Positions 3,095-64,000 of a stretch of 64,000 nt of DNA are shown here, piece by piece. The notes under the pieces are model-generated. The model was not told the DNA's origin, searched no databases, and was given only the letters and a program-made list of their open reading frames with translations. How positions within the stretch are numbered: position 1 is the stretch's first letter; the number at the start of each line of letters is the position of its first letter. The position numbers were made by a program, and so were the translations under genes. The DNA is from Streptomyces sp. NBC_00539 (lineage in GTDB: Bacteria > Actinomycetota > Actinomycetes > Streptomycetales > Streptomycetaceae), in NCBI RefSeq assembly GCF_036346105.1, contig NZ_CP107811.1:310001-374000 (forward strand), written 5' to 3'.

Positions 3095-5743
3095 TCAGGA
3101 CGGGTCCCCGTACACCACGCCGCGGCCGTAGCCACCCAGGTAGACCCGCCCGTAGGCGTCGGGGTCGCCAGTGATGACGTTGATCGCGCTGCCACCGAAC
3201 TGGTGCTGGTCGTCGTTGATCCGGACCCAGGTCGAGCCGCCGTCAGTGGAACGGAACAGCCCGGCGACGCCCTTCACCTGCCCGCTGAGGTAGAGCGCCT
3301 GGTACCCGGCACCCGGGGCCGGCTTGCCGAATCCGACGGCGGTCGCCCGCTCCACGTCGCCGGGCTTGCCGAAGCTCTTCCCCCCGTTGGTGGAGTGCAG
3401 GAGTCCGTTGCCCCCGCCGGCGATCCACAGGTCACCGGCGACGCCCGGAACCGCCTTGAGCTGCCCGTCGGGCAGGCCGGTGGCCCGGGCGCCGAAGTGC
3501 TTCCCGCCGTCGGTGCTGGCGTACAGGGTGCCGCCGCTGAGGGCGTAGAAGGTGTTCGCCGCCGACCGGTCGGCCACCACGGACGTGTCCTTGGGCAGAC
3601 CCGAGGCCGCCGCCCAGGCCGAGCCGCGGTCGGTCGAGTAGAACGGGACCTGGCCCGCGGGGGTCCACACCACGGTGGCGCCGTCCGCCGAGACTGCCGC
3701 GGAACCGCCGCCCGCGTCGCGCACCGGCGCCGCGGCGAAGGGCGCCCAGGCGACTCCGCCGTCGGTCGAATAGGCGCCGTGCTGCGCGCCGCCGAGACCG
3801 ACCCGCACGATGAACTGCGGCTTCGACTGTGCGAAGTCGATACCCGTGGTGTTGGTGAACAAGGGTCCGGAGAGCGCCTTGGTGGGCACCTTGGTCAGGT
3901 CCTCGTGCCGGAACCCGCTGACATCGCCGAGCGCACTGATCAGCGGAAGACCGGGGGGCTTGATCAGTCCGAGAGTCGCGGTCTCCTCCAGGCCCTTGGC
4001 CGGGATCGTCCAGTGCGTCGCCCGCCCGCTGTCCGCCGCCGTCACGTCGCGGCTGCCCCACATCCCCGATCCCGTGCCGTACAGCACGTGCCCGGAATCG
4101 AAGGGGTCGATGGCCAGGGCGCCCATCCAGTGCCCGATGCCGGTGCCCACGTAGGGGGCTGCGGAGGCGTCCCGCACCGAAGTCGCGCCGAGTGCCTTCC
4201 AGGAGGCGCCGCCGTCGGCCGACCGGTAGATCTCGTCCGAGGGCCACCAGCGGTCCAGCGTGGTGACCATGACCGTGGACGGGTGCTGCGGATCGACCGC
4301 CAGGCCGGCGAAGCCGAACCCGCCGCTGGACGGCGAGATGTCCTTCCAGCCCCCGGTGGTCGGCGTGTACTTCCACACCGAACCGGCCGTCACTCCGTTC
4401 GGGCCCGGCGCGTTGGTGTACGTCAGGTAGAGCGAGCCGTCGCCGGACAGCACACCGTGCTGGGGCAGCTGCCCCTTCGGCTGGCCGGGCACGGCCTGCC
4501 AGGTGCTGCCGCCGTCGGTGGAGCGGTACAGCGAGGTGGTCTTGTCCGCCACCCCGGCATAGATCGTCCGGCTGCCGGACGGGCCGAAGGTCACGAAGGA
4601 AAGGCCGACCCCGCTGCTCGCACCGTCCTTCACGGGGAAGCTGGTGACCTGGTTCCAGGTCACGCCGTAGTCGGTGCTGCGCCAGAGCCCGTTCTTGCGG
4701 GTACCCAGGTAGAGCGTGCCGTGGTCGGACGGGTCCACCACCAGCCGCTCGCCCATGGACCGGCCGTCCTCGTTGCCGCCCAGTTTGAACGGCAGGTCGG
4801 TGCGCTGGAACGTCCTGCCCTGGTCGGTGGAGCGGAGGATCGCGCCGTTGCCCGCCCAGTCGTTGGTGTAGGTGCCGCTCGCGAGGTACAGGCGGTTCGG
4901 GTCGACCGGGTCGGTCGCCAGGCTCTCGATCCCCAGCAGGTTCCAGTCGGCTCCGCCGATCCAGTCGGTCAAGGAGGTCCACCGGGCTGCGGTCGCGTCC
5001 CACCGGTAGGCGCCGCCGATGTCGGTCCGTGCGTACAGCAGGTCCTTGCGGGTGGGGTTGAAGACCAGCCCGGTGACGAACCCACCACCGACGATCTGCG
5101 CGTTGTGCCAGGTGTACGCCCCCGAGCCGGCCACCTTCACCAGCTTCCACTGCTGGTTGGTGCTGCCCCTGTCGGCGTACTGGATGAGCGGCACCCCTTC
5201 GGCGGTCGAGCCGCCCCACACGTCCAGCACCATGCCGCTGCTCCGGCTGACGATCTTCACCGCCGTGCCGCCGACGTCCTCGATCTTCCACTGCTGGGCG
5301 GCGGCACCGTGGTCGGACTGCTGCTCGATGGCGGCCGCCGGCTGCCTGGAAGCATCCCGCACTCCGAGGACCTTCTTGCTGCCGCGGTTCTCCAGCGCGT
5401 AGTAGCCGTCCCCCGTCGGTCTCAGCCGCCACTGCTGGCTCGCGGCACCGGCCACGCGGCTCTGCTGCCGTGTCCAGGCACCGTCCGACGTGTCCGCCCC
5501 GGGCACGTCCAGCACCTTGTCGCTGCGCACGGACACCAACTCGTAGTAGGCGTCGGCATCCGGCGTCGCGGCCTCCGAGTCGGCCTGCACGAACAGCAGG
5601 TACGGGCCGAGCACACCGGGCACGCCCAGCGCCAGGACCCACCCCGTCCAACGCCGGCGATGGCGTCCACGCGTACGCCGCTCGCCACCGGCCGCGCGCG
5701 TGCGCCGACCGCGTCCGTGCGCAGTGGGATCCGTCTCGTTCAT
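3095..5743 (-). CDS. Secreted xyloglucanase, GH74 with ricin-type lectin domain
   Basis: 882 residues. A very basic N-terminus and one hydrophobic segment (about 32-53) form a signal peptide. Residues 63-203 are a ricin-type beta-trefoil (CBM13-like) with QQW motifs at about 103, 150 and 197. From about 210 the chain is a GH74 double seven-bladed propeller: VTGLVFNPTRKDLLYARTDI contains the conserved catalytic Asp (about 241), and many Asp-box motifs follow (STDQGRTF, STDYGVTW, STDGGSTW, SADGGASW, STDRGSAW). GH74 enzymes cut xyloglucan. ATG 5743 is chosen for its AAGGAG site and signal sequence. An N-terminal rather than C-terminal carbohydrate-binding module is less usual. The promoter boxes at 5860-5886 match those of the expansin gene. 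Confidence 0.92.
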   Translation of the reverse strand: MNETDPTAHGRGRRTRAAGGERRTRGRHRRRWTGWVLALGVPGVLGPYLLFVQADSEAATPDADAYYELVSVRSDKVLDVPGADTSDGAWTRQQSRVAGAASQQWRLRPTGDGYYALENRGSKKVLGVRDASRQPAAAIEQQSDHGAAAQQWKIEDVGGTAVKIVSRSSGMVLDVWGGSTAEGVPLIQYADRGSTNQQWKLVKVAGSGAYTWHNAQIVGGGFVTGLVFNPTRKDLLYARTDIGGAYRWDATAARWTSLTDWIGGADWNLLGIESLATDPVDPNRLYLASGTYTNDWAGNGAILRSTDQGRTFQRTDLPFKLGGNEDGRSMGERLVVDPSDHGTLYLGTRKNGLWRSTDYGVTWNQVTSFPVKDGASSGVGLSFVTFGPSGSRTIYAGVADKTTSLYRSTDGGSTWQAVPGQPKGQLPQHGVLSGDGSLYLTYTNAPGPNGVTAGSVWKYTPTTGGWKDISPSSGGFGFAGLAVDPQHPSTVMVTTLDRWWPSDEIYRSADGGASWKALGATSVRDASAAPYVGTGIGHWMGALAIDPFDSGHVLYGTGSGMWGSRDVTAADSGRATHWTIPAKGLEETATLGLIKPPGLPLISALGDVSGFRHEDLTKVPTKALSGPLFTNTTGIDFAQSKPQFIVRVGLGGAQHGAYSTDGGVAWAPFAAAPVRDAGGGSAAVSADGATVVWTPAGQVPFYSTDRGSAWAAASGLPKDTSVVADRSAANTFYALSGGTLYASTDGGKHFGARATGLPDGQLKAVPGVAGDLWIAGGGNGLLHSTNGGKSFGKPGDVERATAVGFGKPAPGAGYQALYLSGQVKGVAGLFRSTDGGSTWVRINDDQHQFGGSAINVITGDPDAYGRVYLGGYGRGVVYGDPS

Positions 5744-6239
5744 GTGGGGCTCCTTGCTCCGGCCCTGCCTGCGGGCACCCGCCCGGTCAGCGGTGCGCAG
5801 CGGCACGCCGCGGTGTGGTCGACGATCCGTGGGTGTGATCGTCTTCGTGTCACCCGTCAGTCGCCACCGACCGCCAAAAGGTTGCCGCCTGTCGAAGTTC
5901 TTCTTCGAGCACTGACGGCCCGGCCCGGCGCGCGCACATCGCGGCGACGCGCGTGCCGCGAGCGGTACAACACCATGGTGGCAGTGCGGCTGCGTACAAG
6001 ACGCAAGACATGAATGCCGGCTGCTCCCGGCGGCAGCAGAGGCCGCCGGGTTCACCCTGTACGCTCGCTCACCGCGAAGGTGCACCTGTTCTTGCGGCGG
6101 ATCCGAGCTGGACACTCGAATCCGCGCAGCTCAGAGGTACCTGCTCCTGACTTGGTGTCAGACTGTCAGGCCCAGTTGCGTATCCGGGGTGAAGGTGCGG
6201 CGCCGTACTCGGCGGACCGCTCCCCCGAGGGAGGTGGGA
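5744..6239. other. Divergent promoter region, GH74 and sigma-CBM42 genes
   Basis: 496 bases between two divergent starts. It holds the GH74 promoter boxes (5860-5886), a short inverted repeat around TCGAAGTTCTTCTTCGA (about 5892-5908), and direct repeats TGTCAGACTGTCAG just before the sigma gene. No separate gene is convincing here. Confidence 0.5.
5860..5886 (-). promoter_or_regulatory. ECF-type promoter candidate of the GH74 gene
   Basis: On the minus strand GGCAACC (5886-5880) plus TTTT, then GGCGAC (5865-5860), 14 bases apart. Sequence and spacing match the element before the expansin gene (437-463). It lies about 117 bases before the GH74 start codon. Confidence 0.6.
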
Positions 6240-7802
6240 ATGGGGCTCATGGATGCGGACCACGTGAGGTTGGTCGTCGCCGCGCAGGCCGGTGACGATC
6301 GGGCGCGCGAGAAACTGATCGCCGCGTACCTGCCGTTGCTCTACAACATCGTCGGGCGAGCGCTGAGCGGGCATGCCGACGTCGACGACGTCGTCCAGGA
6401 AACCCTGCTGCGCGTGGTGCGCGACCTGCCCGCCCTGCGCGCACCGGAAAGCTTCCGGTCCTGGCTGGTGTCGATCACGCTCCGCCAGGTCAATTCCTAC
6501 TGGCACCGGCAACGCGCCTTCGCCGGCCGGACCACGGTCATCGACGAGGCACTCCAGGTACCGGACGCCGGCGCCGCACCTGAGGACGTGACGATCCTGC
6601 GGCTGCACGTGTCGGACGAGCGCCGTCAGCTCGTCGAGGCCGGCCGGTGGCTCGATCCGGACCATCGGGTGCTGCTGTCGTTGTGGTGGCAGGAACGCGC
6701 CGGCTCGCTGAGCCGTGATGACATCGCCGCCGCGACGGAGCTCAGTGTCGCCCACGTCGGAGTACGCCTCCAACGCATGCGCGAGCAGCTGGAACTGAGC
6801 CGGACGATCGTCGCCGCGCTGCAGACCGACCCGCGCTGTCCGCAGTTGGACGAGACCGTCGCCGGCTGGGACGGTCTCCCCGCATCGGTGTGGCGCAAGC
6901 GGATCGCGCGGCACACCCGCGGCTGCCCGGTCTGCGGGGGGACGACGACCCAACGGGTTCCGGCCGAACTTCTGCTCATGGACCTCGCGCCGCTGGCGGT
7001 CCCGGCCGGGCTCATCACCGCACTGGCGGCAAAGGGCCTGCTGTCGGGTACGGCCGCGAGCGCCGCCGCACTGGCCACGGCACCCGCCGCCTTCGGCACG
7101 GCCACGGGTGGAAGCAGTCTGCACAGCTCGCTGATCGGCAAACTCCACGCCGCGGCGACCGCTCATCCGCTGGTGGGCCTCGCCGCCGGCGCGGTACTCA
7201 TCGCCGGGACCGCCACCTACGCGACCTGGCCCGAACCGGCGCACCGGGAGCCGGGCGCCAACGCCGCTCCCACGGTCGGCAACCCCACGCCGATTCCGTC
7301 GAGCACCACCACGTCGGCCGGACCGTCACCGGTGAGTCCGTCCGCCGTCGCAGGCACTGTCCCGCTGGGCGCACAGTCGATGGAGTCCGTGGACGACCCC
7401 GCCCTGTACCTCGGGTATGCCGAGCACTTCGCGACGCTCGCCCGCGTCTCGGCGTCCAGCAGCGCGCAGACACGGCAGCGGGTCACGTTCACGGTCGTCC
7501 GGGGGCTGGCCGACACGCGGTGCGTCACCCTCCGCGCAATCGACGGCCGCTATCTGCGCCATCAGGACCTGCGGCTGCGGCTGAGCACCGACGACGGCAG
7601 CGAACTGTTCCGTGAAGACGCCACCTTCTGTCCGCGCCCGGGGGCGGTCGCCGGATCGGTGACCCTGCACGCGCACAACTATCCCGGATCGGTCCTCCGC
7701 CACCGCGACGGTGGCATCTGGCTCGACGGCTCCGACGGCACTCGGGCTTTCGCCGGTCAGTCCTCCTTCATCGTGCGAAGGCCCTGGGTCAACGCTCGTT
7801 GA
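6240..7802 (+). CDS. ECF sigma factor fused to zinc motif, membrane segments and AbfB (CBM42) domain
   Basis: 520 residues, about three times a normal ECF factor. Residues 1-95 are sigma region 2 (DVDDVVQETLLRVV) and about 130-190 region 4 (SRDDIAAATELSVAHVGVRL). Next comes H225-xxx-C229-xx-C232, the HxxxCxxC pattern of zinc anti-sigma domains, hydrophobic stretches at about 248-290, a good membrane helix at about 308-328, a Pro/Ser/Thr linker (335-370) and an AbfB domain (about 378-516) with the family repeats YLRHQDLRLRL, FREDATFC and VLRHRDGGIWL. AbfB/CBM42 binds arabinofuranose side chains. The protein thus joins sugar sensor, anti-sigma element and sigma factor in one chain. ATG 6240 has a GGGAGGTGG site. 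It is followed by its own terminator and the arabinoxylanase gene. Signal release might need proteolysis. Confidence 0.85.
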   Translation: MGLMDADHVRLVVAAQAGDDRAREKLIAAYLPLLYNIVGRALSGHADVDDVVQETLLRVVRDLPALRAPESFRSWLVSITLRQVNSYWHRQRAFAGRTTVIDEALQVPDAGAAPEDVTILRLHVSDERRQLVEAGRWLDPDHRVLLSLWWQERAGSLSRDDIAAATELSVAHVGVRLQRMREQLELSRTIVAALQTDPRCPQLDETVAGWDGLPASVWRKRIARHTRGCPVCGGTTTQRVPAELLLMDLAPLAVPAGLITALAAKGLLSGTAASAAALATAPAAFGTATGGSSLHSSLIGKLHAAATAHPLVGLAAGAVLIAGTATYATWPEPAHREPGANAAPTVGNPTPIPSSTTTSAGPSPVSPSAVAGTVPLGAQSMESVDDPALYLGYAEHFATLARVSASSSAQTRQRVTFTVVRGLADTRCVTLRAIDGRYLRHQDLRLRLSTDDGSELFREDATFCPRPGAVAGSVTLHAHNYPGSVLRHRDGGIWLDGSDGTRAFAGQSSFIVRRPWVNAR

Positions 7803-7827
7803 GCATGTGGGACCCCCTTTCCACGGG

Positions 7828-7862
7828 ACGACCAGCCCGCAGGGCTTGTCGTAACGTTTTTT
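7828..7862 (+). terminator. Rho-independent terminator after the sigma-CBM42 gene
   Basis: Stem ACGAC plus AGCCC (7828-7838) pairs with GGGCT plus GTCGT (7842-7852) around one mismatch and a three-base loop. It is followed by AACG and a six-T run (7857-7862), 25 bases after the stop codon. Confidence 0.75.
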
Positions 7863-7918
7863 GCCTGCGAGATGCATCACCGGGCAATCGCCCGGACTGC
7901 GCGCAGTTTTCGTTACGA
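7849..7918. promoter_or_regulatory. Paired TCGTAACG/CGTTACGA sites before the GH10 gene
   Basis: TCGTAACG (7849-7856) and its exact inverse CGTTACGA (7911-7918) flank 54 bases containing a 6-bp hairpin (CCGGGC 7880-7885 with 7890-7895). The rest of the 389-base gap (to 8191) shows no gene. GTAACG has the AAC core of an ECF -35 box, so these may be regulator sites or opposed promoters for the arabinoxylanase. The left copy overlaps the terminator stem. Confidence 0.4.
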
Positions 7919-8026
7919 GACCGCGGGTGCGCAAGCCTCCACTTCATGGGGTGCCCTTCCCGCCGCTCATATGACGCACCGGCGCGGCAGGGGTTCCCCG
8001 GCTTCCCCCGTTGACGTTTCTCCTGA

Positions 8027-10555
<2,529 letters not shown>

Positions 10556-56224: not shown

Positions 56225-57094
56225 GTGAACGGCTGGTACGTGGACGACCGTTGCTTCAACTGCGATGTCGCGCGGCAGCTCGCGCCCGGGCTGATCGGCG
56301 AGGTTGACGGAAGGTCCGAGATCCTGCGGCCGCCGCGCGATGAAGCGGAGACGCGGCGCTTACACGCAGCCGTCTTCGCCTGCCCCACCCGCTCCATCCG
56401 CCCCACCTCCGGACAACCGGACCGGCGGCTCGATCCCTTTCCCATGGCCTTGGACAGCGCCGTACTGTTGTGCGGGCACAACTCACAGCGCACTGCCGGA
56501 GCCAATTCCTACTTGCTCCTGCGGCCCTCCCGCACGGTCATGATGATCGACACTCCCCGCTGGAGCAGTGAACTCGCCGCGCGGTACTCAGCCTTGGGCC
56601 CGGTCACCGATGTGCTGCTCACCCATCGGGACCACGCTGCACACGGCCGCCGCTACGCGGACCACTTCGGGGCCCGGCTGTGGATCCACGAGGGCGACCT
56701 CGATGCGGCGCCGGACGCGGACCAGGTGATCCGGGGTCTTGAGCCTGTTGAAATCGGTGAGGGGGTCACCGCGCACCCGCTGCCCGGCCACACTCCGGGC
56801 AGCGTGCTCTACCTCGCCGACGACCGGTACTGCTTCAGCGGGGACAGCTTCTACTGGTCACGCACCACCGGCGATCTGGAAGTCGCGGAAAGCGTGATCT
56901 GGTACTCCGTCGAGGAGTTGACTGCCTCACTGGCCAGAACGGCCGGACGACTCCGGTTCGAATGGGTCCTGCCAGGCCACGGTGACCGCCGCCGGCTGCC
57001 CGCCGACGAAATGTCCCGGCGGCTGACCACGCTGGCCGTGCGCACGCGGCAGCTGCAGCCCCGGCCGGTCGACCTCAGCGCCGTTCGCTGGTGA
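56225..57094 (+). CDS. MBL-fold hydrolase with ferredoxin-like N-terminus
   Basis: 289 residues from GTG 56225, AAGGAGG before it. Residues 1-55 resemble a small ferredoxin (YVDDRCFNCDVARQLAPGLI, then FACPTRSIRP) but the usual third Cys of CxxCxxC is Ala, so an iron-sulfur cluster of normal kind is doubtful. From about 85 comes a metallo-beta-lactamase fold: VLLTHRDHAAHGRRYADHF (HxHDH-like; here HRDH), HPLPGHTPGSVLYL, CFSGDSFY (metal Asp) and WVLPGHGD. All usual metal-binding residues except one His are seen. It would be a hydrolase or a persulfide/glyoxalase-like enzyme. Convergent with the cluster genes, 14 bases apart. Confidence 0.8.
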   Translation: MNGWYVDDRCFNCDVARQLAPGLIGEVDGRSEILRPPRDEAETRRLHAAVFACPTRSIRPTSGQPDRRLDPFPMALDSAVLLCGHNSQRTAGANSYLLLRPSRTVMMIDTPRWSSELAARYSALGPVTDVLLTHRDHAAHGRRYADHFGARLWIHEGDLDAAPDADQVIRGLEPVEIGEGVTAHPLPGHTPGSVLYLADDRYCFSGDSFYWSRTTGDLEVAESVIWYSVEELTASLARTAGRLRFEWVLPGHGDRRRLPADEMSRRLTTLAVRTRQLQPRPVDLSAVRW

Positions 57095-57108: not shown

Positions 57109-59094
57109 TCACGGCGGGGGCGGTTGGCGGAAGAACACTGCCGCAGCCAGAGCGATCCGGCTGCCGGGGCGCACCAGCTCGACGGTGTCGGGCCAGACCG
57201 ACGGCTCCGGAAGGCCCAGGCACCGGGCGAGGCGCGCAGCGAAGCGGGGGACGACGGGCGCCGCGACGGCGGTCAGCAGGCGGGCCGCGGCCAGCTCCAG
57301 CGCGACGGCCGTACGGGTCTCGTCCGCCCAGGCCGGGTCGTCGGCGTGCAGCCGCTGCGCGGCGGAGAAGCGAACGGTGTCCTCGACCAGCCCGGTGAGT
57401 TCGGCCGCGGCGTCCCGCAGGGAGAAGCCCTCGGGGCCCAGCGCTCCGGTGGCGGCGGTGAGGCGGGTGCCGAGCCGGGCGAGGAAGGCGCAGTGTTCGG
57501 GGGTCCAGTTCCCGGCGTCGGGTGCGCAGCCGCCGTGGTGCATGGCGACGCGGGCGCCGAGGTCGTTCAGCCAGGACTGCCAGGTCCCGATGAGGGTGTC
57601 GGCCAGGGTGGTGTCGTACGCGGATCGCCGGAAATCGGTGCGGACGCCCTCGGGGCGGGTGGAGGCGAGGAAGTAACGGACCGAGTCGACGGTGTCGGGA
57701 CACAGGATGTCCTTGCCCCAGACGGCGTGGCGGCGGCTGGTGGAGAACTTGCTGCCCTCCAACAAGTAGAACTCGTTGACGTGGTAGTCGATATCGGGTT
57801 CCCAGTCCGGGTGGGCCAGCTCGTAGAGGATGGGGTAGAGCAGTGAGTGGTAGAAGCTGTTGTCGTAGCCGAAGAAGTGGACGATCTTCCATTCCCGCCG
57901 GGGTTCTGCCGCCCGCCAGTCACGGCCGAGGCGGGTGCCGAGCGACTGGATGCCGTGCAGGAAGCCGTAGCTCATCTCCGGCCACACCCAGATGACCTGG
58001 CCGGGTACCTCTCCGCCGGCCGGGGTGACGCCCCAGGTGGAGGGGTGGGTGAGGGGCAGGTCGAATCGTGGGCGGTCGAAGACGCGCCGGGCGAGGTCGG
58101 CGAGACGGGCCGGGACCCGGCCGAGCCGGTGGTGCTTGCGGACGGTGTCGCGGAAGGCGTGCACGGGCAGGGAGTAGCGGCTGATCCGCTCCCGGCGGGG
58201 CGCGGCGGAGGACCGCGCGGACATGGCGGCGGTGAGGTCGTGCACCAGGTTCGGCTCGCCGCACTCCTCGCAGATGTTGCCGCCGGTGGCCGCGGGGCAG
58301 TGCGGGCAGCCGCCGCTCACGTCGGCCTCGTACAGGTAATGGCCGTTCTCCGCGTCGACGAGGGCGTCGGATTCGGTCACGCGGACGGCGCCGGAGGCGG
58401 TGACGTGGGCGAAGAAGTCCCGCAGCCCGTCCGCGTACTCGGGATCCGTGCTGGTCACCGTGTACTGGTCGACGGTGATGTCCATCAGGCGCAGGGTCTG
58501 GGCGATCTCTGCGCTGAAGTGCGCGGCGGTCTCGGCGGGAGTGCGTCCGTCCCTCAGGCCGGCGGCGGGAACGTAGCTCTGGTAGTCGTCGCTGCCGGTG
58601 AGGTGGTAGGCCTCGGCGCCGGTCATCCGCTGGAAGCGGACGTACGCGTCGGCGCCCAGGTAGGGGCCGCAGAGGTGGCCCAGGTGCAGGTCACCGTTGG
58701 GGGTGGGTGGGGTGGAGAAGACGAAGACCGGGCGGTCGCCGAAGGAGGCGCGCCGGATGTCGGCGGCCGATGCGAGGGCCCGGCCGGGGTCGCGCCAGTA
58801 CTGGGTGACGAAGACCAGGTCGTTGTCCCCCGTGTTCTCCAGGACGTGCGACTCGAAGGGTTCGAAGAGGACGACGGTGCCGGGCTCCACGGGGTGACGC
58901 GCCCCGTCGACGTCGAACTCGCCGCGGCCCGCGACGATCACGAAGCACTCGGTCTCGTCGTGGTGGTGGCCGGTGGAGCGGACGCCGGGGGCCACCCGGC
59001 CCCAGCCCGCACCGACTCCGAGGCCGTCCATCGCGCTCATGTCGATGCCGAACGCCTCGCTGAGCGCATGCGGGTCGTACCTGTTGATGATCAT
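57109..59094 (-). CDS. Cupin/methionyl-tRNA-synthetase-like N-N bond forming enzyme
   Basis: 661 residues. Residues 1-105 are a cupin: GHHHDETECFVIVAGRGEFD and FESHVLEN give the metal His/Glu set. From about 120 the chain is class I tRNA synthetase of MetRS type: FSTPPTPNGDLHLGH (HIGH motif as HLGH), a zinc knuckle (C263, C266, C275, C278), and GSKFSTS (KMSKS-like, 448-453). The anticodon-binding region is short and divergent. Known relatives (Spb40 of s56-p1, Tri28 of triacsin) join N6-hydroxylysine and glycine through the nitrogens, with the synthetase part activating glycine as an adenylate. ATG 59094 overlaps the stop of the oxidase gene (ATGA). Last gene of the operon. Confidence 0.9.
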   Translation of the reverse strand: MIINRYDPHALSEAFGIDMSAMDGLGVGAGWGRVAPGVRSTGHHHDETECFVIVAGRGEFDVDGARHPVEPGTVVLFEPFESHVLENTGDNDLVFVTQYWRDPGRALASAADIRRASFGDRPVFVFSTPPTPNGDLHLGHLCGPYLGADAYVRFQRMTGAEAYHLTGSDDYQSYVPAAGLRDGRTPAETAAHFSAEIAQTLRLMDITVDQYTVTSTDPEYADGLRDFFAHVTASGAVRVTESDALVDAENGHYLYEADVSGGCPHCPAATGGNICEECGEPNLVHDLTAAMSARSSAAPRRERISRYSLPVHAFRDTVRKHHRLGRVPARLADLARRVFDRPRFDLPLTHPSTWGVTPAGGEVPGQVIWVWPEMSYGFLHGIQSLGTRLGRDWRAAEPRREWKIVHFFGYDNSFYHSLLYPILYELAHPDWEPDIDYHVNEFYLLEGSKFSTSRRHAVWGKDILCPDTVDSVRYFLASTRPEGVRTDFRRSAYDTTLADTLIGTWQSWLNDLGARVAMHHGGCAPDAGNWTPEHCAFLARLGTRLTAATGALGPEGFSLRDAAAELTGLVEDTVRFSAAQRLHADDPAWADETRTAVALELAAARLLTAVAAPVVPRFAARLARCLGLPEPSVWPDTVELVRPGSRIALAAAVFFRQPPPP

Positions 59095-60244
59095 TTGATG
59101 TCCCTCGTCTCGTCTGCTGCGGAGTCCCGCAGGTGCAGGAGGCCGGCGGCATCCGCCGCGAGTGCGGGGCGAGCCGGTAGCCGGAGCCGCCGGCCGCACC
59201 GGCGAAGACCAGGCGGCCCGCGGCGTCGAGTGCCGTGACGACGGGGCCGGAGCCGCGGGGGTGGTAGGCGTCGCAGAAGACCCGTCCCGAGGCGCAGCGT
59301 GCGGCGAACTCCGGCGCGTACCCGGCCAGGAGCTCCCGTGCCTCGTGCAGGTTCTGCGGCGACACGCCGCCGCTCAGGCCGTCCGGGGTGACGTCCCACT
59401 CCCGGCAGGTGTAGCTGAACAGCCAGTGACCGCGCTCGTGCAGGGGCAGGAGGAAGGCGTCCTCGTCGTGGAAGACGACCGCGCCGTCCCCCGTGGAGGT
59501 CGGGATGTCCACGTGCAGGGCCACGATCTTCTTCACGCGCAGCCCGAGCGGTGCGAGTGCCTTCGCCCACGCCGGGTCGTCGAGCCAGGGCCCGGGGGCC
59601 AGGACCACCCGGCCGGCGGTGACCTCGTCGCCCGTGCCGAGGCGGAGCGTGACGTCGTCAGGGCCGGGTCGCGCGGCGGTCACCCGTACGCCCTCCCGGA
59701 AGGCGGCGTACGGGCGCATGGCGCGGGCCAACCCGGCGGTGAGGGCGGCCACGTCGGCGTACTGGCAGCCGTCGGCCGTCCACGCCGCCTTGCCGTCGGG
59801 CACGGTGACCCGGCGTGCGGCGACCGGGCTCGGGGCGGGGCGCAGCCGGGCGGCGGGAAGGTAGGCGGTGTGGAGTGCGGCCTGCGCGTCCGCGTCGGCG
59901 ATCACCGTCATCCCGAGTGGGTGGACGGGTACGTCGGGCTGGGCCGCGCGCAGCTTCTCGTACCAGTCCTGGCTGTACGCGGTCATCCGTCGGACGTGCT
60001 CGGTGGCGCCGCGGGGGAAGTGCAGTCCGGCTGAGCGGCGGGTGGCGCCGGAGCCGACGGTGTCGCGGTCGAGGACCATGACGCTGGTGCCGGGGCTGCG
60101 GTGCAGGACCTCCCGGGCGGTCATGCAGCCGACGACCCCGGCGCCGACGACTGCCACGTCGACGTAGGTGCTCGTCCCGTGGGCCGGCCCGGCGGCTCCA
60201 GGCGCGGCGAGGCCGGAGGGTGCGGAGCCCGCGCGGGCGTTCAC
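59091..60244 (-). CDS. FAD amino-acid oxidase (DAO family), one-base frameshift near the end
   Basis: About 384 residues after correction. GTG 60244 overlaps the hydroxylase stop (GTGA). DVAVVGAGVVGCMTAREVL is the FAD motif; RRSAGLHFPRG, GRVVLAPGPWLDDPAWAKAL and RLVFAGAAGGSGYRLAP are of the glycine/D-amino-acid oxidase group. At the GGGG run 59166-59169 the frame is lost; with one base added the protein ends ALAADAAGLLHLRDSAADET, RDIK at TGA 59091, giving the expected ATGA junction with the next gene. In hydrazine clusters this enzyme oxidises the lysine-glycine hydrazine and releases hydrazinoacetic acid. Sequencing error is the most likely cause of the shift. Confidence 0.8.
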
Positions 60245-61563
60245 CGGTCGTTCCACGTCTGTTTGGAGTCCGGTTTCGAGGACCAGTCGATGAAGGAGGC
60301 CAGCTGATCGTCGCCGCGTACCCCGCGCAGCCGGTCCGCTATCCGGCGGCTGCGCCATGCGTTCAGGCTCAGGTTCACGTCGGCGAGCCCGCGCTGGGCG
60401 CGGACCGCGTTCTGCAGGAAGACGGCGTGCTGCGGCGGGCCGTCCCAGCGGACCGCGAAGTCCTCGTCCACGCGGAATTCGTCGCCCTCGCGCTCAAGGC
60501 GCCCCGCGATGGGGGCCAGGAACGGGGTGGGCGCGGGCCGGAAGCCGGTGGCCCAGACGATGAGGTCGGCTTCGTGCTGTTCGGCGGCGTCCGGTTCGTC
60601 GTTGTGCCGGGCGGTGACCTCCCAGTTGCCCCGGACGCCCCGGGTGACGGTGGTGACCTCACGGTTCGGGTAGAGCCCGACCAGGTCGGGCAGCCCCTCG
60701 ACGAACCGGTGGACGTACAGCTGCTGGTAGATGGCGCGCAGCGTGTCCTCGGAGATCCCGTCGCTGCTGAGCAGGGTGTCCTGGTTGACCGCGCGCCGGG
60801 CGTCGGCGGGCAGACGGTAGAAGTGGTCCGAGAAGGACGGCGTGTAGAAGTCATTGGTGAACGGCGAATCGTCGATCGGAAGGTAGGTCCGGCGCCGGGA
60901 GAGCCATGAGATCCGCCGTGGCCGGTCCGCCGCGGGTCGGGTAATGAGGTCGAGGAACGCCTCTGCGCCCGACTGGCCGCCGCCGACGACCATGACCCGC
61001 TTGCCGGCCAGGTGCACGGCCTTCGTGATGAACTCGCTGACGTGGAACTGGGTGGGACCGAGCAGTTCGCGGGCCTGCGGCGGGACGTACGGGCTGCTGC
61101 CGACACCGACCACGATGTGGTCGGCGGTGATCGTGCGCCGGCTCGTGCGGACCCGGAAGACCCGGTCGAAAGTGACCTCGTGGACCTCCTCGCCGAAGAC
61201 CACGTACGGATTGCGTTCGGCGGCCCAGGCCAGGTAGTTGCGGAACTCCTGGCGTGGGACGGCGGAGAACTGGGCGTTCAGGAAGTGGTAGACGCGGCCT
61301 TGCTCATGGAGGTACGAGAGGAAGGAGAATCGATTCGTCGGATCGGCGAGGCTCACGAGGTCCTTGAAGAGGGAGACCTGGAGGGTACTTCCGGGCATCT
61401 GCTGGCCGTCGTGCCAGGCGAACTCCTCTTTCCGGTCGAGGAAGAGGTTGGGCACGTCGGCGTGGTCGTGGAGCAGTGACGCGAGGCTGAGGTTCGCCGG
61501 TCCCACGCCGACACCGACGCACCGGTAGTGCACGGGTGGGTGGCCGCGGCTCTCGTTCCCCAT
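60241..61563 (-). CDS. Lysine N6-hydroxylase (SidA/IucD family)
   Basis: 440 residues, full length. VGVGVGPANLSLASLL is the FAD site, VMVVGGGQSGAEAFLDLI the NADPH site, and LIVWATGFRPAPTPFLAPI the ATGY-like closing motif (ATGF). LSSDGISEDTLRAIYQQLY lies before it. Members hydroxylate the side-chain amine of lysine or ornithine for siderophores or, with a cupin-MetRS gene nearby as here, for hydrazine formation. ATG 61563 with AAGGAAGG. Start and stop are in tight coupling with the FAD oxidase gene. Confidence 0.92.
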   Translation of the reverse strand: MGNESRGHPPVHYRCVGVGVGPANLSLASLLHDHADVPNLFLDRKEEFAWHDGQQMPGSTLQVSLFKDLVSLADPTNRFSFLSYLHEQGRVYHFLNAQFSAVPRQEFRNYLAWAAERNPYVVFGEEVHEVTFDRVFRVRTSRRTITADHIVVGVGSSPYVPPQARELLGPTQFHVSEFITKAVHLAGKRVMVVGGGQSGAEAFLDLITRPAADRPRRISWLSRRRTYLPIDDSPFTNDFYTPSFSDHFYRLPADARRAVNQDTLLSSDGISEDTLRAIYQQLYVHRFVEGLPDLVGLYPNREVTTVTRGVRGNWEVTARHNDEPDAAEQHEADLIVWATGFRPAPTPFLAPIAGRLEREGDEFRVDEDFAVRWDGPPQHAVFLQNAVRAQRGLADVNLSLNAWRSRRIADRLRGVRGDDQLASFIDWSSKPDSKQTWNDR

Positions 61564-61621
61564 ATCGGTGTCCTTCCTTGTCAGGTGAGTGGGTCAGAAG
61601 ATCGCGCGTGCTGCGCGGCCC

Positions 61622-62504
61622 TCACACGGACAGCTCCCGCAAGCGCGCTGCCACGCCGTGCTCCCGCAGGAAGGTCAGCCGGCGGGCCGTTTCCGGGCCC
61701 TGCGCCGCGCGCTGCAGGCCGGCCGGCAGCGCGCCGTCCAGCACCCGGGTCACGCCGAGGGCGAGCGGCAACGGGACGCAGAGCGCCATCGCGCTCTCCC
61801 GGGCGGTGCCCGTGAGAGCGAGCAGGCATTCGCCCCGCCGGCCGGGCCCGCCCCGCTCGGTACCGAGGGTCACGGAGACGGCGAGGACGACCCGGTCGCG
61901 GACCTCCCCCGTGGCCGGGCAGCGCTGGGCGAGGTCCTGCGCGAGGACGCGGATCCGGTCGGGGCCCCCGGGTCTCCACCCTGCGGAAGACCGGCTGCCA
62001 GGCCGCCTGCCGGCCGCTGCTGCACAGCGTGCCGCGGATGAAGGTGCGCAGCCGCCGGCCGTCCGGGATCCGGTACTGCGCGCTGAAGGGCACGCTGTTG
62101 TCGCGGTTCGGGTACGCGAACGCGTTCGGTGCGGCCGGCAGCCCGCCGCAGTACGAGGTCAGGTCGACGGGCCCGGCACTGTCCCCGACGGCCTTTCGGG
62201 CGACGTACACCAGTTCGTGCGCGAGGAGGTGGTCGATGCCGGGGTCGAGTCCCGCTTCGGTCTGGCCGACGAGCCCGCAGCGGCCCGCTTCGGCTCGGCC
62301 GGTCAGCCCGAGCCGGTCGAGCAGCGCCACGGCCTTGGACCGCGTACGGCCCCGTACGAAGACCCGTCCGGCCTGCTCGCACAGCAGGCCGAGTCCGCTG
62401 CGGCCGACGGACAGGCCGGTACCGATCCAGTGCACGGTGCGCCCGGGGCCGGCCGGGAGAGGGCGGGCGGCATCGCGCAGTGCAGCCGGCAGTGCATCGG
62501 GCAT
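61622..62504 (-). CDS. Saccharopine-dehydrogenase-like protein, one-base frameshift
   Basis: About 293 residues after correction. ATG 62504 has GAGGAGG before it. VHWIGTGLSVGRSGLGLLCE is a Rossmann-like start; GPVDLTSYCGGLPAAPNAFA is the typical saccharopine reductase segment (YCGGLP). At about 61961-61969 (GGGG plus CCCCC) the frame changes; the rest (RIRVLAQDLAQRCPATGEVR, VLAVSVTLGTERGG, AMALCVPLPLALGVTRVLDG) fits the same family and ends RLRELSV. This enzyme may handle the aminoadipate semialdehyde formed when the lysine part is cleaved, or reduce an imine. The shift probably comes from the homopolymer. Confidence 0.7.
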
Positions 62505-62614
62505 CGAAGGCCTCCTCGACGTGCTCGGCGGGGGCGGATCCGCTTGCTGCGCCCTCAGGACCGCCCCGTCCGGGGCGAGGGGCGCGGGCCGCTCGGGGTA
62601 CCGCGCGGGGCAGG

Positions 62615-64000
62615 TCAGCGAGCGGCCGGGAAGGGGGTGCCGCCGTCCGGCGCTCCGGCGCCCTGCGCACGCCACCAGGCGCGGCCCTCTTCGGGCAGGG
62701 TGTACAGCGGGTCGTAGTACTCGTGGAGCCGGTCGAGGTCGTCCTCGTTCCCGCTGTCCACGGCGGTGCGGTAGCTCTTCGACCAGTACGAGATTCCGCG
62801 TACCCCGTCGTAGTGCGTCGGCTGGTGCACCCATCGTTTGCCGACGAACGGTACGTCGCACACGATCCGCGGGGTGGCGAAGCCGGGCAGATAGCCCATG
62901 ATCGCGTGCTGGAGGCGCTGGGCCTCGGCGACCGAGGTCCGCCAGTGTTCACTGAACGGGATCATGTCGCACATGTAGAAGTAGTAGGGCATGATCCCGG
63001 CCCGGTCGAGCAGCGCGAAGCACAGGTCCAGCAGGGCCCTCGGAGTGTCGTTGACGGTGCGCAGGAGCACGGCCTGGTTGCGGATGTCGCGCAGTCCCGC
63101 GTCGAGCAGCAGCCGCGCGGCCTCCGCGACGCCGCTGGTAATCTGCTGGGCGGCGTTGGCGTGGGTGTGCAGCGCGATCTGCACCCCGCGGGCCCGCGCG
63201 GTCGCGGTGAGCCGCGAGATGCCGGCGAGCACGGGTTCGGCCGTCCAGTGCTGTGGCAGTCCGATGAGAGCCTTGCTGGCGAGCCGCACGTCCCGGACCG
63301 ACTCGATGTCGAGCAGGGACTCGACGAAGGATTCCACGCGCGGCCAGGGGACGTTCGCGACGTCGCCGCCGGAGACGACCACGTCACGGACGGCCGGGGT
63401 CTTGCGCAGGTAGTCGATCATCGCTTGGAGCCGGGCGCCGGGTTTGAGGGCGAAACTCGCCTTGGTGATCTGGGCGGTGGAGTTGCCGACGAGGTCCATG
63501 CGGGTGCAGTGGCCGCAGTACTGCGGGCAGGTGGCGACCAGTTCGGCGAGGACCTTGGTGGGGTAGCGGTGCGTCAGCCCCTCCGTGGCCCACATGTCGC
63601 GCTCGTGCAGGGAGTCCCGCTCGGCCTTGGGGTGGGAGGGGTAGTCGGTCCGGCGGTCGGAGAACACCGGGAGCATGTAGCGGCGTACCGGATCGGCGTA
63701 GTAGGCGTCGGTGAGGCTGTCGGGGCCGGTAGCCGCGACGTGCGGGGCAATGGTGTTGATCATGTACGGGGTGACGAGCATGGACATCGTGGCCCGCTCG
63801 CACTGGTCGCGGTCCAGGTCGGCCAGGAAGCGGTCGCCGAGCGCCGGTCCGGTCACCTCGCGGAGCTGGCGGAGGTTCTTGACGCAGTGGGCCCGTTGCC
63901 ACTGGGCGGAGCCCCACTCCTCCTGCGTGACATCACGCCAGCCGGGTAATCGGCGGTGGTCCGGCTCCAGGGCCGGGCTGTAGGCATAGGCGTACGGCTG
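62615..64000 (-). CDS. Lysine 2,3-aminomutase family radical SAM enzyme (start outside window)
   Basis: 461 residues visible; the N-terminus lies beyond 64000. PGWRDVTQEEWGSAQWQRAH is near the family start; CPQYCGHCTR is the CxxxCxxC iron-sulfur site; VVSGGDVANVPW, LASKALIGLPQHW, VQIALHTHANAAQQIT, RNQAVLLRTVNDTP and IMPYYFYMCDMI are KamA family motifs with the PLP- and substrate-binding regions. KamA-type enzymes move the 2-amino group of lysine to C3 (beta-lysine) using SAM and PLP; glutamate and other variants exist. It leads the hydrazine gene set on the minus strand, separated by 110 bases from the next gene. Which amino acid it uses is open. Confidence 0.85.
   Translation of the reverse strand, partial: QPYAYAYSPALEPDHRRLPGWRDVTQEEWGSAQWQRAHCVKNLRQLREVTGPALGDRFLADLDRDQCERATMSMLVTPYMINTIAPHVAATGPDSLTDAYYADPVRRYMLPVFSDRRTDYPSHPKAERDSLHERDMWATEGLTHRYPTKVLAELVATCPQYCGHCTRMDLVGNSTAQITKASFALKPGARLQAMIDYLRKTPAVRDVVVSGGDVANVPWPRVESFVESLLDIESVRDVRLASKALIGLPQHWTAEPVLAGISRLTATARARGVQIALHTHANAAQQITSGVAEAARLLLDAGLRDIRNQAVLLRTVNDTPRALLDLCFALLDRAGIMPYYFYMCDMIPFSEHWRTSVAEAQRLQHAIMGYLPGFATPRIVCDVPFVGKRWVHQPTHYDGVRGISYWSKSYRTAVDSGNEDDLDRLHEYYDPLYTLPEEGRAWWRAQGAGAPDGGTPFPAAR

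Follow-up and report, generated by a model that had tools for sequence, protein, structure and literature searches.

The negamycin cluster of Kitasatospora purpeofusca is described in a preprint as encoding NegJ, a homologue of KinJ that converts glycine to hydrazine acetic acid, together with an ATP-grasp enzyme and functions that form β-lysine, hydroxylate lysine and carry out N-methylation (PMC12154649). Another pathway is reported to yield hydrazinoacetic acid (HAA) and 2-aminoadipate 6-semialdehyde (PMC13274452). The amino acid substrates used by members of the cupin–MetRS family include glycine, glutamate and others. Here we analyze a stretch of 64,000 nucleotides (the window) from Streptomyces sp. 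NBC_00539, positions 310001-374000 of contig C1 in a genome made up of a 7.07 Mb and a 437 kb contig. From position 57109 to its right edge the window carries five genes on the minus strand, for a cupin–MetRS fusion, a flavin adenine dinucleotide (FAD)-dependent oxidase, a lysine N6-hydroxylase, a broken saccharopine-dehydrogenase-like protein and an aminomutase. We consider it probable that a cluster of the negamycin family has its right-hand part in this window. It would make HAA from lysine and glycine through the cupin–MetRS enzyme and not through NegJ, with a 5-deoxynegamycin as its predicted product and with an N–N module that would be interchangeable across the family.

The order, strand and families that an earlier note on this DNA had proposed for the five genes were borne out by domain calls (Pfam and NCBIfam), with the corrections that the dehydrogenase gene is broken and the oxidase gene is frameshifted at its 3' end. 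The cupin–MetRS fusion (57109-59094, minus strand, 661 aa; Pfam Cupin_2 and tRNA-synt_1g) is predicted to be a hydrazine synthetase of the Spb40/PyrN/AzsN kind, coupling N6-hydroxylysine and glycine. Its residues H43-x-H45-x3-E49 and H83 are spaced exactly as the metal-ligand pattern H50/H52/E56/H90 of PyrN, an ATP motif, KFSTSR, is present at K449, and the protein is 74% identical to the copy in an azaserine-like cluster on the second contig of the same genome. The FAD oxidase (59091-60244, minus strand, 384 aa; Pfam DAO), of the Spb39/AzsM kind, is predicted to free HAA, and the lysine N6-hydroxylase (60241-61563, minus strand, 440 aa; Pfam Lys_Orn_oxgnase, 1.4e-96), of the Spb38/AzsL kind, has lysine 6-monooxygenases among its solved-structure relatives. 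The hydroxylase and the cupin–MetRS fusion, with its zinc-ligand and ATP motifs, fit an Spb38-40-type HAA module; the oxidase is of the DAO family but has an altered end.

The aminomutase, a KamA-family radical S-adenosylmethionine protein of 467 aa, occupies 62615-64000 on the minus strand and starts 18 bases past the right edge (C1:374018). It has no Pfam match, and its NCBIfam matches fall under the curated cut-offs (171 of 525 bits for the equivalog). Aligned to 2A5H, it keeps CxxxCxxC, CTR, what we take to be the carboxylate-binding arginine and both lysine-binding aspartates, with the presumed pyridoxal phosphate lysine one position off; its predicted activity is that of a lysine 2,3-aminomutase.

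The cluster runs past the right edge, as the earlier note had expected. Scripted gene calls on C1 add seven genes, ending at C1:381895, and the unit comprises 11 genes and one dead gene: a FemAB-like transferase, an ATP-grasp enzyme, a major facilitator superfamily (MFS) transporter, an α/β-hydrolase, a methyltransferase, a PGM1-type ATP-grasp ligase, a SET protein, the aminomutase, the broken dehydrogenase, the hydroxylase, the oxidase and the cupin–MetRS fusion. This arrangement is not due to chance. SET, aminomutase, hydroxylase, oxidase and cupin–MetRS genes, with the dehydrogenase where there is one, lie in the same order in four other streptomycetes, with 71-96% identity to the window's for SET, aminomutase, hydroxylase and cupin–MetRS. 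A scan of named genomes with the PGM1-type ligase returned four loci (Streptomyces sp. OfavH-34-F, S. cirratus JCM 4738, S. mashuensis JCM 4059 and Lentzea pudingi), and a plasmid search with the aminomutase (E ≤ 1e-60) returned two records, from Streptomyces sp. SAT1 (81.5% identity) and S. globosus (63.6%). Counting the window, four of the five streptomycete loci have the full set, S. cirratus at 87-96%, S. mashuensis at 54-76% and SAT1 at 62-81% identity, except that for the relatives' oxidases the reference was the copy on the second contig (about 59-63%). The fifth, OfavH-34-F, gave no match to the second ATP-grasp, MFS and hydrolase genes in the 37 kb examined and keeps the rest. A copper amine oxidase (6549-8612 of locus L046) and a luciferase-like protein (5582-6538) are encoded there where the others have these three genes, possibly a further tailoring variant. 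Among the four relatives, a dehydrogenase gene between aminomutase and hydroxylase was found only in S. cirratus; the OfavH-34-F, S. mashuensis and SAT1 loci showed none.

Since the unit recurs in four other streptomycetes, the aminomutase belongs to the cluster; the concern that it might come from an unrelated neighbor can be put aside, given that the 11 genes on the SAT1 plasmid are bounded by unrelated genes, annotated as encoding a DUF2461 protein and a cold-shock protein. The first ATP-grasp occurs at ≥74% identity in three of 393 Streptomyces genomes (the window's, G147 and G035), each with a cupin–MetRS gene in the same locus. The first ligase search had found 34 of the 393 genomes at E ≤ 1e-30, mostly through other clusters, and five of the 29 loci fetched with short flanks (L017-L045) matched further core genes. 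At E ≤ 1e-15 the SET query hit 3/394 genomes of the class, one of them being that of the window.

As read from sequence, the pathway would begin with N6-hydroxylation of lysine by the hydroxylase. The cupin–MetRS enzyme would activate glycine with ATP, esterify N6-hydroxylysine and rearrange the ester to a hydrazine, which the FAD oxidase would split into HAA and aminoadipate semialdehyde; the known pathway would instead reach HAA through NegJ from glycine plus, as in NegJ's family, nitrite. HAA would then be N-methylated by the class I methyltransferase (C1:376114-376842) or by the SET protein (C1:374128-374763). The nearest solved structure of the latter is BurB (9l4t), and it may therefore methylate a small molecule. 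The aminomutase would supply (3S)-β-lysine, which is the product of streptothricin-type and clostridial aminomutases; in the aminomutase tree the window-type and Lentzea enzymes group with the streptothricin-type enzyme of S. globosus (100/100). The PGM1-type ATP-grasp (C1:374768-376069; solved-structure match PGM1, 3wvq) would couple β-lysine to N-methyl-HAA.

The expected product is a 5-deoxynegamycin because no lysine or β-lysine hydroxylase of the negamycin pathway was found, the search having used a single 392-aa query, and with a (3S)-specific aminomutase the simplest candidate would be 3-epi-deoxynegamycin. Negamycin itself has the (R,R) configuration (PMC12797225). 3-epi-Deoxynegamycin and its leucyl adduct are described as natural products that promote readthrough of stop codons but lack antimicrobial activity (PMC10296333). 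Leucyl-negamycin has been put forward, without data, as a negamycin precursor (PMC12797225). Here leucine may be added by the FemAB-like transferase (FemAB/GNAT_6; FemX; C1:380723-381895) or by the second ATP-grasp (ATP-grasp2; C1:379579-380730), both encoded on the strand opposite to the SET–MFS genes, and may be removed by the α/β-hydrolase (C1:377015-377869), with export by the MFS transporter (C1:377869-379062; named by eye). FemX and the hydrolase would fit a leucyl on/off pair; a sequence search matched FemX to no solved structure. The earlier note had taken the aminomutase to imply either a β-lysine unit or a β-amino hydrazine branch, and a product that could be new. A β-lysine joined to a hydrazine is indeed what we predict; however, a known or nearly known negamycin congener is likelier than a new scaffold, because β-lysine plus HAA is the logic of negamycin, which the note overlooked. 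It is more likely that the new part is the N–N chemistry used.

A second core type was seen as well. In one sister genus, three genomes (G531, G551 and G570) encode an aminomutase, a 392-aa protein, a methyltransferase, an ATP-grasp enzyme, SET, FemX, a hydrolase, an MFS transporter and NegJ, a gene content in keeping with what has been published on the negamycin cluster. Their aminomutase is about 30% identical to that of the window, and the G531 enzyme passes the TIGR03822 cut-off. Three further loci (G473, G697 and G379) have aminomutase, 392-aa homologue, methyltransferase, ATP-grasp, SET and NegJ, with FemX and MFS unmatched. By position only, the 392-aa protein, which has no Pfam match in G531, may be inferred to be the candidate for the published lysine hydroxylation. 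A search confined to this one candidate hydroxylase family showed no homologue in the window's genome at E ≤ 0.001 and none in the loci fetched for the window type and for Lentzea; the same query finds five of the other second-core loci. The order of methyltransferase, ATP-grasp and SET is common to window-type and NegJ-type clusters, and 13 of the 14 loci counted as negamycin-type encode a SET protein, G139 being the one without a match.

Two second-core loci carry a split version of the cupin–MetRS system. G139 (contig C854; L095:7609-15319) has the second core at 76-77% identity to G531 and, with it, a MetRS-like protein, a hydroxylase, a standalone cupin and a DAO-like oxidase, and no match for the 392-aa homologue, SET or FemX. 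G754 (contig C30; L126:6248-15526), from another family, has aminomutase, 392-aa homologue, methyltransferase, ATP-grasp and SET, together with a MetRS-like protein, hydroxylase, cupin and oxidase. NegJ was unmatched in the 20 kb fetched for each of the two.

A replacement of the hydrazine part appears in Lentzea pudingi, which has a core of the window's type (FemX, ATP-grasp2, MFS, hydrolase, methyltransferase, first ATP-grasp, SET and aminomutase; 48-63% identity) and in which hydroxylase, oxidase and cupin–MetRS gave no match in 21 kb. Between ATP-grasp2 and MFS lies a gene for a 515-aa protein without Pfam, NCBIfam or, by sequence, solved-structure match. The residues reported as important in KinJ (R497, M498, N501, H541, R551 and R570; PMC12154649), have counterparts in it as R363, M364, N367, H407, R417 and R442. 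Each is conserved in all 31 aligned proteins (the Lentzea protein and 30 of 32 family matches), KinJ being compared through its reported residue numbers. The exact KinJ spacing is found in 14 of the 31, and the Lentzea protein and eight others have six extra residues ahead of the last arginine. The 515-aa protein is therefore best read, from this alignment, as a putative member of the NegJ/KinJ family standing in place of the cupin–MetRS set. Used as a query, it matches 32/395 genomes of the family (E ≤ 1e-10) and nothing at that threshold in the window's genome. NegJ-like genes were also seen in G566 (L085), G499 (L091) and G488 (L092), 65%, 43% and 44% identical to the Lentzea protein, respectively, and these loci were rejected as negamycin-type for want of a core aminomutase, methyltransferase or SET match within 20 kb, as was L127, which matched SET only. 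Near the G566 gene lie two ATP-grasp genes and, by eye, AMP-ligase and GNAT genes, a setting that suggests other hydrazine products.

Searches started from the ligase, from NegJ, from the aminomutase and from SET gave 14 loci with aminomutase, methyltransferase and ATP-grasp, of which seven have NegJ, five the fused cupin–MetRS and two the split cupin and MetRS; because NegJ was itself among the queries, these proportions are not frequencies. One locus with only aminomutase and ATP-grasp (G219; L096) is outside the 14 and was left out of the trees. On the tree of methyltransferase, ATP-grasp and SET (14 rows, G139 without SET) the N–N type needs three changes, and single clades of NegJ carriers (approximately unbiased test, p-AU 2.7e-46) and of cupin/MetRS carriers (p-AU 1.5e-40) are both rejected. 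A single clade of the latter is likewise rejected with the aminomutase added and G754 removed (13 rows, p-AU 2.8e-7). Lentzea groups with the window type in the methyltransferase tree and the concatenated trees (100/100). A single acquisition of the cupin–MetRS genes in the five window-type loci is neither favored nor rejected (p-AU 0.45). From these results we tentatively propose, at somewhat less than even odds, that negamycin-family pathways exchange whole, unrelated N–N systems (NegJ, fused cupin–MetRS, or split MetRS and cupin). Two types of core would be involved and no fewer than three changes, the reason being that every such system delivers the same diffusible block, HAA. If true, N–N-bond chemistry would be subject to non-orthologous replacement within one antibiotic family, and a lysine/glycine route via N-hydroxylysine would converge with a reductive heme route on the same intermediate. 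HAA would be a testable exchange unit with two routes to negamycin analogues, and the locus would be a candidate for 3-epi-deoxynegamycin and its leucyl adduct.

Several observations weigh against the negamycin-family reading. Glycine as the substrate of the cupin–MetRS enzyme is assumed from homology, the split systems of G139 and G754 might use another amino acid, and what FemX, SET and the hydrolase act on is a matter of guesswork. The tree program flagged long branches for Lentzea and G754, and the tree built from ATP-grasp by itself places Lentzea away from the window type. ATP-grasp2 has no counterpart in the eight second-core loci, and FemX is found in only three of these eight; an extra residue, or another use of these enzymes, is therefore possible. 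Finally, the frameshifted oxidase and the broken dehydrogenase mean that this copy may be decaying.

The lack of an ATP-grasp2 match in the second-core loci bears on the first rival explanation, that the product is a β-lysine–hydrazine peptide outside the negamycin family, with ATP-grasp2 and FemX adding residues to give a new pseudo-tripeptide or something larger. The presence of ATP-grasp2 in four of the five window-type loci and in Lentzea is consistent with this, as is the low identity of the PGM1-type ligases between the two core types (34-38%). However, the order of methyltransferase, ATP-grasp and SET is shared with NegJ-type clusters, three of six of those have FemX, and OfavH-34-F keeps the rest of the set without ATP-grasp2. 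We regard such a peptide as unlikely, though it deserves to be kept in mind.

On a par with it is the explanation that the cluster in NBC_00539 is a decaying relic which makes nothing, the compound being made by its relatives only. The dehydrogenase gene (about 61622-62504, minus strand, placed by alignment to the intact 394-aa S. cirratus gene) has lost two internal stretches of roughly 55 and 48 residues and has one frameshift. The FAD oxidase is 91% identical to that of S. cirratus over 360 residues before its frame shifts, and in the DNA alignment a run of C near its 3' end is one base shorter; both genes are open in S. cirratus. Against decay, the remaining ten genes have open frames and share 87-96% identity with their S. 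cirratus counterparts, and the change in the oxidase is confined to the last 24 of 384 residues, where the one-base deletion may be real or an error in what is a single assembly. Moreover, another HAA gene set is present on the second contig, and disruption of tri23 and tri24, genes of the saccharopine dehydrogenase kind, left triacsin production unaffected. We judge a silent relic to be rather improbable. The triacsin result, together with the broken state of the gene here, also led us to reject the dehydrogenase as a product-defining enzyme.

That a β-lysine peptide cluster simply adjoins an unrelated hydrazine module is very improbable: the two parts do occur apart, the HAA genes in the azaserine-like cluster and a 64% identical aminomutase in a streptothricin-type cluster where no hydrazine genes are annotated, and three of the 25 places (in 23/393 Streptomyces genomes, E ≤ 1e-120) with cupin–MetRS genes are in negamycin-type loci, the flanks fetched being too short to assign most of the others, but the same strand and order in five of five streptomycete loci, the SAT1 borders and a Lentzea locus where the hydrazine part is swapped for another hydrazine-enzyme family member, not simply gone, argue against it, and we reject it. 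We conclude that the cluster is real and well conserved, that the earlier note read it correctly in outline, and that it is best viewed, function being read from sequence throughout, as a putative member of the negamycin family whose N–N module is non-orthologous.

To the left of the cluster, convergent with the cupin–MetRS gene, lies a gene (56225-57094, plus strand) for a single-cluster ferredoxin fused to a metallo-β-lactamase fold. It was rejected as a member, since nothing matched it in the stretches fetched around the cluster from S. cirratus, OfavH-34-F, S. mashuensis, Lentzea and SAT1. A 74% identical homologue lies near the aminomutase/ATP-grasp pair of G219.

The second contig (C2, about 113300-138800; L012 and L013) carries a second hydrazine cluster with the gene content of the azaserine (azs) cluster. 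Its order is isocitrate lyase, β-ketoacyl synthase (KAS) III, iron-containing redox enzyme, acyl-CoA dehydrogenase, P450, two saccharopine dehydrogenases, ATP-grasp, MFS, hydroxylase, oxidase, cupin-MetRS-carrier, non-ribosomal peptide synthetase, adenylase, carrier, GNAT and AAT (some named by eye), in agreement with the part of the azs table compared. Plasmids of S. lavendulae and Streptomyces sp. NBC_01276 have stretches about 84% identical to it.

In the literature searched, which did not extend to the NegJ paper (Wang, Wei and Ryan 2025) or to Matsuda 2024, we found no paper linking the cupin–MetRS route with negamycin or with an aminomutase, and no described cluster with both the aminomutase and the cupin–MetRS set; either of those two papers may mention such clusters. 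The word aminomutase does not occur in the main text of four HAA-module papers (PMC13274452, PMC13061610, PMC11705231 and PMC10445470), and PMC13274452 contains both negamycin and cupin, but negamycin only in its reference list.

Among known systems, the neg cluster of K. purpeofusca is like the present one in β-lysine formation, N-methylation, an ATP-grasp enzyme and an HAA-type hydrazine, and its look-alike loci in the sister genus add SET, FemX, hydrolase and MFS. It differs in forming the N–N bond with the heme enzyme NegJ, where the window has hydroxylase, cupin–MetRS and oxidase. The neg-type second-core loci have an aminomutase of another subfamily, the window's genome lacks a homologue of the candidate hydroxylase, and its cluster has an extra ATP-grasp. 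The RHS1-type split MetRS and standalone cupin of Rhodococcus jostii, from a cluster whose product is described as unknown, resemble the arrangement beside the negamycin-type core in G139 and G754, and the G139 cupin carries the D-x-H-x3-E pattern of RHS1. The plasmid cluster of S. globosus, apparently streptothricin-type from its annotated genes, shares an aminomutase of the same clade, but there it is accompanied by capreomycidine synthase, a carbamoyltransferase and a glycosyltransferase, with no hydrazine genes annotated in 29 kb. The three-gene N–N module is shared with the s56-p1 (Spb38-40), triacsin (Tri26-28), azaserine (AzsL-N), N-nitroglycine (NngK-M) and dob systems, and in triacsin and azaserine saccharopine dehydrogenases also accompany it; the products of these HAA-module systems are diazo, triazene, hydrazone or nitramine compounds, whereas a β-lysyl hydrazide is predicted here.

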